From positions 1 through 64,000 of the forward strand of contig NZ_BPUO01000011.1 in the NCBI RefSeq assembly GCF_022179805.1: a DNA stretch of 64,000 nucleotides, read 5' to 3'. The notes below the pieces were generated by a model that was not told the origin of the DNA, ran no database searches, and was given only the letters and a program-made list of their open reading frames with translations. The translations under genes were made by a program, and so were the position numbers. This stretch comes from Cupriavidus pauculus. Its GTDB lineage: Bacteria; Pseudomonadota; Gammaproteobacteria; Burkholderiales; Burkholderiaceae. Below are positions 38,546 through 40,185 of the stretch, piece by piece; within the stretch, counting starts at the first letter, position 1, and every line of letters starts with the position of its first letter.

Positions 38546-39889
38546 TTGGCCACGGCGAAACCCAATGCAAGCGCGCAGGCCAGGAACACGGCGAAGTACG
38601 GCGATCTCAAGCGCCGGCTGATGTTCCTGGTGCTGGCTTTGATCGTCTACCGCATCGGTGCACATATTCCGGTGCCGGGGATCGATCCGGACCAGCTTGC
38701 GAAGCTTTTCCAGAGTCAGTCGGGTGGCATCCTCGGGATGTTCAACCTGTTCTCAGGCGGTGCGCTGTCGCGCTTTACCGTCTTCGCGCTCGGCATCATG
38801 CCGTACATCTCGGCGTCGATCATCATGCAATTGCTGACGATCGTGCTGCCGCAGCTGGAGTCGTTGAAGAAGGAAGGGCAGGCAGGGCAACGTAAGATCA
38901 CGCAGTACACGCGCTACGGCACCGTGGTTCTGGCCACGTTCCAGGCGCTGTCGATTGCGGTGGCCCTGGAGTCGCAGCCGGGTCTGGTCATCGACCCTGG
39001 CCTGATGTTCCGGGCTACGGCGGTGATCACGTTGGTGACGGGCACGATGTTCCTGATGTGGCTGGGTGAGCAGATCACCGAGCGTGGTCTGGGCAACGGC
39101 ATCTCGATCATCATCTTCGGTGGTATCGCGGCGGGCTTGCCCAATGCGATCGGCGGACTGTTTGAACTTGTCCGTACGGGTTCCATGAGCATCATCGCGG
39201 CGATCCTGATCGTGGCGATCGTGGCTGGTGTGACCTACGCCGTGGTGTTTATCGAACGTGGCCAGCGCAAGATCCTGGTGAACTATGCCAAGCGTCAGGT
39301 CGGCAACAAGGTGTACGGCGGTCAGTCGTCGCACCTGCCGCTGAAGCTGAACATGGCAGGGGTGATTCCGCCGATCTTTGCATCGTCGATCATTCTGTTC
39401 CCGGCGACGATTGCGGGCTGGTTCACGTCTGACTCGACAGGCACGGTTGGCCGGGTGATCAAGGATCTGGCCGCCACGCTGTCGCCGGGTCAGCCGGTGT
39501 ACATCCTGCTGTATGCGACTGCAATTGTATTTTTCTGCTTCTTCTATACGGCTCTGGTCTATAACAGCCGTGAAGTGGCAGACAACCTGAAGAAAAGTGG
39601 AGCCTTCATTCCGGGCATCCGTCCGGGCGAGCAAACGACGCGCTATATCGACAAGATCCTGGTGCGCCTGACGCTGGCTGGTGCGATTTACATCACACTG
39701 GTTTGCCTGTTGCCGGAATTCCTGGTGCTGCGCTGGAACGTTCCGTTCTATTTCGGCGGAACCTCGCTGCTGATCATCGTGGTCGTCACGATGGACTTCA
39801 TGTCACAGGTACAGTCCTATGTCATGTCGCAGCAGTACGAGTCGCTGCTGAAGAAGGCGAATTTCAAGGGTAACCTGACCCTGCGTTAA
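38546..39889 (+). CDS. secY: Preprotein translocase subunit SecY
   Basis: A 447-residue ten-helix channel of the SecYEG translocon. The start is TTG 38546, supported by GGAG (38536-38539) and the family start [50 protein letters not shown] (plug and gate region), [19 protein letters not shown] and the cytoplasmic loop [20 protein letters not shown] are visible. The C terminus [17 protein letters not shown] is intact. Confidence 0.98.
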
Positions 39890-39920: not shown

Positions 39921-40037
39921 ATGGCAAAAGACGACGTCATCCAGATGCACATCCGGATTCTTCCGGGTGACAAGGTGACGGTTGAGCTGACTCCATATGA
40001 TCTGTCACGCGCACGTATCGTCTTCAGGACGAGGTGA
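39921..40037 (+). pseudogene. infA: Translation initiation factor IF-1 with a large in-frame internal deletion
   Basis: A 38-codon frame in the normal infA position between secY and rpmJ. It starts MAKDDVIQM and ends [29 protein letters not shown], that is, the two ends of IF-1. The usual protein has 72 residues, so about 34 codons (QGEVIENLPNATF... to ...GKMRMHY) are missing while the frame is kept. The junction is the codon CAC at 39948-39950. The lost part corresponds to most of the OB-fold barrel, so the product is unlikely to work as IF-1. IF-1 is essential, so a second full copy would be expected elsewhere; several beta-proteobacteria carry two infA genes. A sequencing artefact seems less likely because the frame is intact, but is not excluded. 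Confidence 0.85.
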
Positions 40038-40068
40038 CGCGAACTGGAATTGAAGGAAGAGGAAAATC

Positions 40069-40185
40069 ATGAAAGTGCTGGCTTCTGTGAAGCGCATTTG
40101 CCGCAACTGCAAAATCATCAAGCGCAACGGTGTCGTGCGCGTGATCTGCTCGTCGGATCCCCGCCACAAGCAACGCCAAGGCTAA
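40069..40185 (+). CDS. rpmJ: 50S ribosomal protein L36
   Basis: A 38-residue protein of the zinc-binding type: Cys11, Cys14, Cys27 and His33 are present (CRNC, then [14 protein letters not shown]). GGAAGAGG precedes the ATG. It lies 31 bp after the shortened infA and 19 bp before rpsM. Confidence 0.97.

Follow-up and report, generated by a model that had tools for sequence, protein, structure and literature searches.

The window analysed here is a 64,000-nucleotide stretch of Cupriavidus pauculus DNA (NCBI RefSeq assembly GCF_022179805.1, contig NZ_BPUO01000011.1, positions 1 to 64,000 of the forward strand), and the subject is the shortened copy of infA, the gene for translation initiation factor IF-1, that lies in its spc operon. 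The genome that holds the window is called G000, and the other genomes of the comparison set are referred to by further G-numbers. In the secY-rpmJ interval of the window there is a 38-codon frame, which is arranged with its neighbours as follows:

38546–39889, plus strand: secY, an intact open reading frame, the upstream neighbour and the query for the locus searches
39921–40037, plus strand: infA (spc copy), in all likelihood a pseudogene; its remnant of 38 codons is open from an ATG start to the TGA stop codon at 40035–40037; below the TIGR00008 cut-off, with a partial PF01176 match
39945–39951, plus strand: deletion junction, placed by alignment with nine relatives; 102 bp are absent relative to G046, and the breakpoint is ambiguous by 1–2 bases
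40014–40068, plus strand: last 24 nt of infA and the rpmJ leader, the best-kept part in dead genes of the family, with low synonymous diversity in codons 61–72; a possible cis element
40069–40185, plus strand: rpmJ (L36), an intact open reading frame, the downstream neighbour

The remnant consists of infA codons 1–9 joined to the last 29 codons. Relative to the intact gene of G046, 102 bp or 34 codons are missing in frame, as given by the length difference and by the alignment with the nine relatives. The original prediction, which was made from this DNA alone, had described the loss of about 34 internal codons with the frame kept, and 38 codons in place of 72 at the secY-rpmJ position. Both statements hold, and the 72-codon form is found at 50 of the 58 loci that could be read in the genus, which speaks against a chance frame. 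The recurrence of the loss, described below, was beyond what this DNA alone could reveal. The coding sequence is thus disrupted in G000 at a place where the ortholog is intact in most relatives, which is how a pseudogene is recognised. Against TIGR00008, the NCBI equivalog model for IF-1, the 38-codon frame scores 48.3 bits, which is below the cut-off of 61.15, and it covers profile positions 41–68 of 69. Its PF01176 match is likewise confined to positions 38–64 of 64. A complete single OB domain comprises about 70 residues, and the alignment shows that residues 10–43 of it are gone. A structure model of the 38-mer was uninformative, as the full-length control reached a pLDDT of 42 only. Finally, the last sense codon of the remnant is AGG, whereas it is AAG in 126/126 intact spc gene sequences. 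These came from a scan of 138 loci, 126 of which were taken as intact and 8 as broken; L073 and L116 are intact but were missed by the pattern, and L111 and L119 are unresolved. The 126 sequences mix two collections and some genomes are probably present twice.

If this copy is dead, another infA should be present, as the original prediction anticipated. A PF01176 profile search of G000 returned four matches, two of which are intact, full-length genes. The three matches outside the spc locus are:

G000:C6, from 431278: infA-B (L001), intact, TTG start
G000:C1, from about 296627: infA-C, intact, TTG start
G000:C19:29496–29681: fourth IF-1 copy (L002), full length but for an in-frame TGA at the site that is Trp in infA-C

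The infA-B and infA-C proteins score 102.0 and 96.1 bits against TIGR00008, well above 61.15, and both are therefore placed within the IF-1 equivalog. In addition, infA-B aligns to solved IF-1 chains over residues 1–72 with a best E of 6.8e-22. The two paralogs are under strong purifying selection: dN/dS is 0.014 for infA-B (20 genomes) and 0.020 for infA-C (6 losers), compared to 0.025 for intact spc infA (50 genomes). Trp is present in 0/126 intact spc proteins and occurs in both infA-B and infA-C. The paralogs are presumed to be expressed and to serve the 30S subunit as IF-1.

As the remnant falls below the equivalog cut-off and two intact IF-1 genes elsewhere in the genome lie above it, the remnant is read as a pseudogene whose function is carried by other copies. 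The spc copy is very probably dead, and the 38-residue product would have no function. We regard it as highly likely that spc infA of G000 was inactivated by the internal in-frame deletion, that IF-1 comes from the divergent paralogs infA-B and infA-C, and that the operon copy is dispensable and has been lost more than once. The proposed path to this state is short. With several IF-1 genes present in genomes of the genus, the spc copy would have become dispensable and would then have been lost again and again, with infA-B on C6 and infA-C on C1 supplying the factor. Redundancy, we infer, is what permits loss of the operon copy.

The genus set comprises 60 genomes, 58 of which have a readable secY-rpmJ locus. 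In the other two, G047 (54% complete) and G051, neither spc DNA nor SecY found a match, and in G051 IF-1 found none either. The closest loci that carry a name belong to Cupriavidus. The operon gene has 72 codons in 50/58 and is broken in 8/58, that is, in G000 and seven others, with these lesions:

G000: in-frame loss of 34 codons
G001: deletion plus scrambled sequence
G029 and G041: single-base frameshifts and missense changes
G024 and G033: near-complete deletion, alike in both
G048: in-frame remnant of 10 codons
G058 (L242, C9:3004523–3004702): gene intact but for a single base dropped from a G run, which could be a recent loss or an error of sequencing

A check for the same deletion in related strains had been proposed. 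The same gene is indeed broken in these relatives, but the lesions differ from the one in G000. When a tree is made from nine neighbouring genes, the genomes with a broken infA branch off at separate places between intact ones. A single clade of G000, G029 and G041 is rejected by the approximately unbiased (AU) test (p-AU 0.005, and 1e-79 with G001 added), for groups that were defined once the first tree was known. A clade of G029 and G041 is not rejected (p-AU 0.365), although the nine-gene tree separates the two, and a second tree, made from the infA-B flanks of 20 genomes, resolves the group weakly. Since this clade is not rejected and since both genes carry the same two derived amino-acid changes, G029 and G041 were counted as one loss. 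With G024 and G033 also counted once and G058 left out, the lesions point to at least five separate losses of infA in the genus, provided that recombination within the operon is left aside. An ancestral loss that recombination later reversed might also account for the same distribution.

Loss of the operon gene extends beyond the genus. The family set holds 398 genomes that are at least 90% complete, 341 of them from other genera. Here, the best match to the spc protein is weak in 13/341 (E above 1e-25), and one of these, the 0.2-Mb genome G063, was not counted. The spc loci of the other 12 were all read and none has an intact infA, whereas 6/6 control loci are intact. These 12 losers fall in four genera of the set, which would add at least four losses, with each genus counted once and without a tree. 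For 11 of the 12, PF01176 finds no intact IF-1 other than a divergent paralog, which is the single match in 8 and is accompanied by the spc remnant in 3. The same is true of G041 in the genus itself, where the spc and C12 copies are both broken, so that a paralog is the sole intact IF-1 detected in 12 genomes (G041, G067, G068, G093, G101, G135, G191, G234, G314, G322, G366 and G378). These genomes are an indirect indication that a paralog may bind the 30S A site and sustain growth without a further IF-1. The paralog lies on a different contig from the spc locus in G135 and G191, which are two-contig assemblies, and in G322. The sole IF-1 of the g9, g20 and g15 losers (L250–L259) has a Gly/Arg-rich C-terminal tail of about 15–20 residues, and VYDL in place of PYDL.

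The sample of the order comprises 150 genomes, 145 of which lie outside the family. A weak match only (E 2.9e-26 or weaker) was obtained in 23/145 and no match in 3/145. SecY was found in 22 of these 26 genomes, and no intact infA was seen at 21 of the 22 loci. In G504, infA is full-length and open, but its identity is only about 68% and the usual 12-residue stretch is absent. Decayed infA is present in G479, G512 and G519, and G514 keeps the last codons; at the remaining loci, no infA was recognised by the search used. In G490, G454, G496 and G417 (L277, L278, L285, L286), the secY-rpmJ gap is 10–17 bp, which leaves no room for infA. Nine families of the sample hold both strong-match and weak-match genomes. 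If infA is ancestral in the operon, this suggests at least nine further losses, a figure to be taken as a lead and not as a count, as it comes from match strength and from the loci of the weak-match genomes.

Several points weigh against the conclusion that the spc copy of G000 is dead and that paralogs have taken over. The remnant is open, and compared with seven intact relatives its retained codons, which offer few sites, show 2–5 synonymous changes and 1 nonsynonymous change, at an otherwise invariant codon. Four pairs of intact genes show 2–6 and 0, respectively, and so small a number of sites does not separate a recent deletion from weak constraint. An open frame of this kind would also be expected if the 38-residue product had been repurposed, say as a decoy or regulator still in contact with the 30S A site via the retained C-terminal half of IF-1, and the 10-codon remnant of G048 is in frame as well. 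However, in the other losers the gene is frameshifted, interrupted by stops or almost entirely gone, so that there is no conserved product; residues 10–43 of a single-domain factor are gone; and the one residue that did change, the last, is otherwise invariant. The original prediction had called the copy dead or repurposed. Dead agrees with the score below the IF-1 cut-off, while repurposed finds no support, as the remnants of relatives vary in both length and frame, with several not open. The peptide was dropped as the leading reading for this reason and we consider it extremely improbable. A plasmid search gave no close relative.

A further point against an inactivated gene is that the deletion in G000 is known from one draft assembly (38 contigs), and with it comes the possibility that an assembly or sequencing error hides a full 72-codon spc infA. 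An error of this sort may explain G058, which differs from the intact gene by one base of a G run. In G000, however, the difference is a clean, in-frame loss of 102 bp, which is atypical of homopolymer errors. Other lesions of the same gene are present in seven genus genomes and in 12 of other genera, and the remnant also carries the AGG codon described above. An error is therefore very unlikely. Replacement by a paralog does not readily account for G209, where the PF01176 search found only pieces of a frameshifted spc infA and no paralog; this genome does not fit unless data are missing or wrong. The pieces lie on contig C312 (L260, L269) of a 2.8-Mb genome that is in 640 contigs and is called complete, and they may reflect missing data, sequencing error or a genome without an intact IF-1. 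Finally, the authors of a study on Cupriavidus necator H16 (PMC10164946) were unable to introduce their infA mutation by engineering and regarded the gene as most likely essential.

Inactivation of the spc gene is compatible with a role for its 3′ end, which may belong to the translation leader of rpmJ and so persist at the DNA level in a dead gene. Divergence values, which are uncorrected for relatedness, point both ways. Among seven g9 losers, the terminal 24 nt of the dead gene show 0.024 differences per site and the 20-nt leader 0, with 0.168 at four-fold sites of secY; in two g20 losers the last 24 nt differ at 0/24, the leader at 0.10 and secY four-fold sites at 0.495. Of six codon blocks compared in the 126 intact gene sequences, codons 61–72 are the least diverse at synonymous sites, and the end of infA is still recognisable in G514, which belongs to another family. 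In contrast, in seven intact genomes of the genus itself, the last 24 nt (0.058) are no better kept than the preceding 42 nt (0.044 and 0.053), with secY four-fold sites at 0.150. G029 and G041 were left out of this comparison, and a base missing in the tail of G366 inflates the value for positions −66 to −48. The end has also gone with the gene in other families, both in the four genomes with the 10–17 bp gap and in G466, G468 and G483, where no such stretch was seen. A leader function is consequently possible, though somewhat doubtful.

The start codons of the IF-1 genes gave rise to another idea. Spc infA starts with ATG in 126/126 intact gene sequences. In contrast, infA-B starts with TTG in 20/20 loci read and in 59/59 genomes with a match (of 60), as found with a pattern search that permitted A, G or T at the first base and held the following codons fixed. 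The sequence GCT AAG GAA GAA CT follows the TTG in all 59 matches. The start codon of infA-C is variable. IF-3 is known to regulate itself through an AUU start. By analogy, infA-B could be a self-adjusting backup, whose TTG start would raise its translation when IF-1 is short and start selection is lax, thereby freeing the operon copy for repeated loss. In other genera, however, ATG is the start codon of the paralog in 10 of the 11 losers listed, and G068 has TTG. Since losers with an ATG-start paralog exist, feedback that senses initiation fidelity is not required for loss of spc infA. A self-adjusting backup is considered unlikely.

Related cases are known. In E. coli, infA lies outside the spc operon. 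The gene has been inferred to be ancestral in this operon for Proteobacteria, according to the part of PMC8046335 that was accessible. The loss from the operon treated there is an old, class-level change, whereas the events described here are recent, fall within one genus and have left readable lesions. A closer parallel is chloroplast infA, which, in the available text of PMC4329224, has been lost independently many times, leaving frameshifted pseudogenes, with the function transferred to the nucleus and thus provided from another genomic place. The difference is that here a divergent paralog of bacterial origin takes over within one cell, without organelle transfer or a targeting signal.

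Within the genus, Cupriavidus metallidurans CH34 has infA2 on its second replicon, as G000 has further IF-1 genes outside the operon; the passage of PMC2864759 concerned lists it as a second copy and is silent on loss of the operon copy. This gene probably belongs to the infA-C class. Copy names differ between papers, and in an excerpt of PMC7742992 infA2 denotes the spc copy of another genus. CO-adapted, evolved isolates of C. necator H16 carry a Trp-to-stop change in an infA (PMC10164946, in part). Because Trp is absent from the 126 spc proteins and present in infA-B and infA-C, this mutation would lie in a paralog, and loss of one copy would be tolerated there. A Trp-bearing IF-1 gene was thus lost in the laboratory much as in G000, whose C19 copy has TGA at the infA-C Trp site. 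The H16 case differs in that a paralog was hit and not the spc copy, and in that the available part of the paper treats infA as a single gene. The portions seen of PMC7019866, PMC10782701 and PMC13030852 provide background only. A literature search, with subscription journals mostly outside its reach, yielded nothing that was recognised as dealing with spc infA loss in Burkholderiales.

Taken by itself, the remnant in the window is an ordinary pseudogene. It is of more interest as one case among many in which divergent paralogs have displaced the canonical IF-1. One practical consequence is that infA annotations and essentiality claims in this order must specify which copy is meant. Pairs of close relatives, one with and one without the operon gene, constitute a natural experiment on an essential factor, which bears on what distinguishes the types of IF-1. 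IF-1 is seen as indispensable and the spc operon as among the most stable; here, the canonical copy has been given up several times, and a distant paralog is apparently enough.
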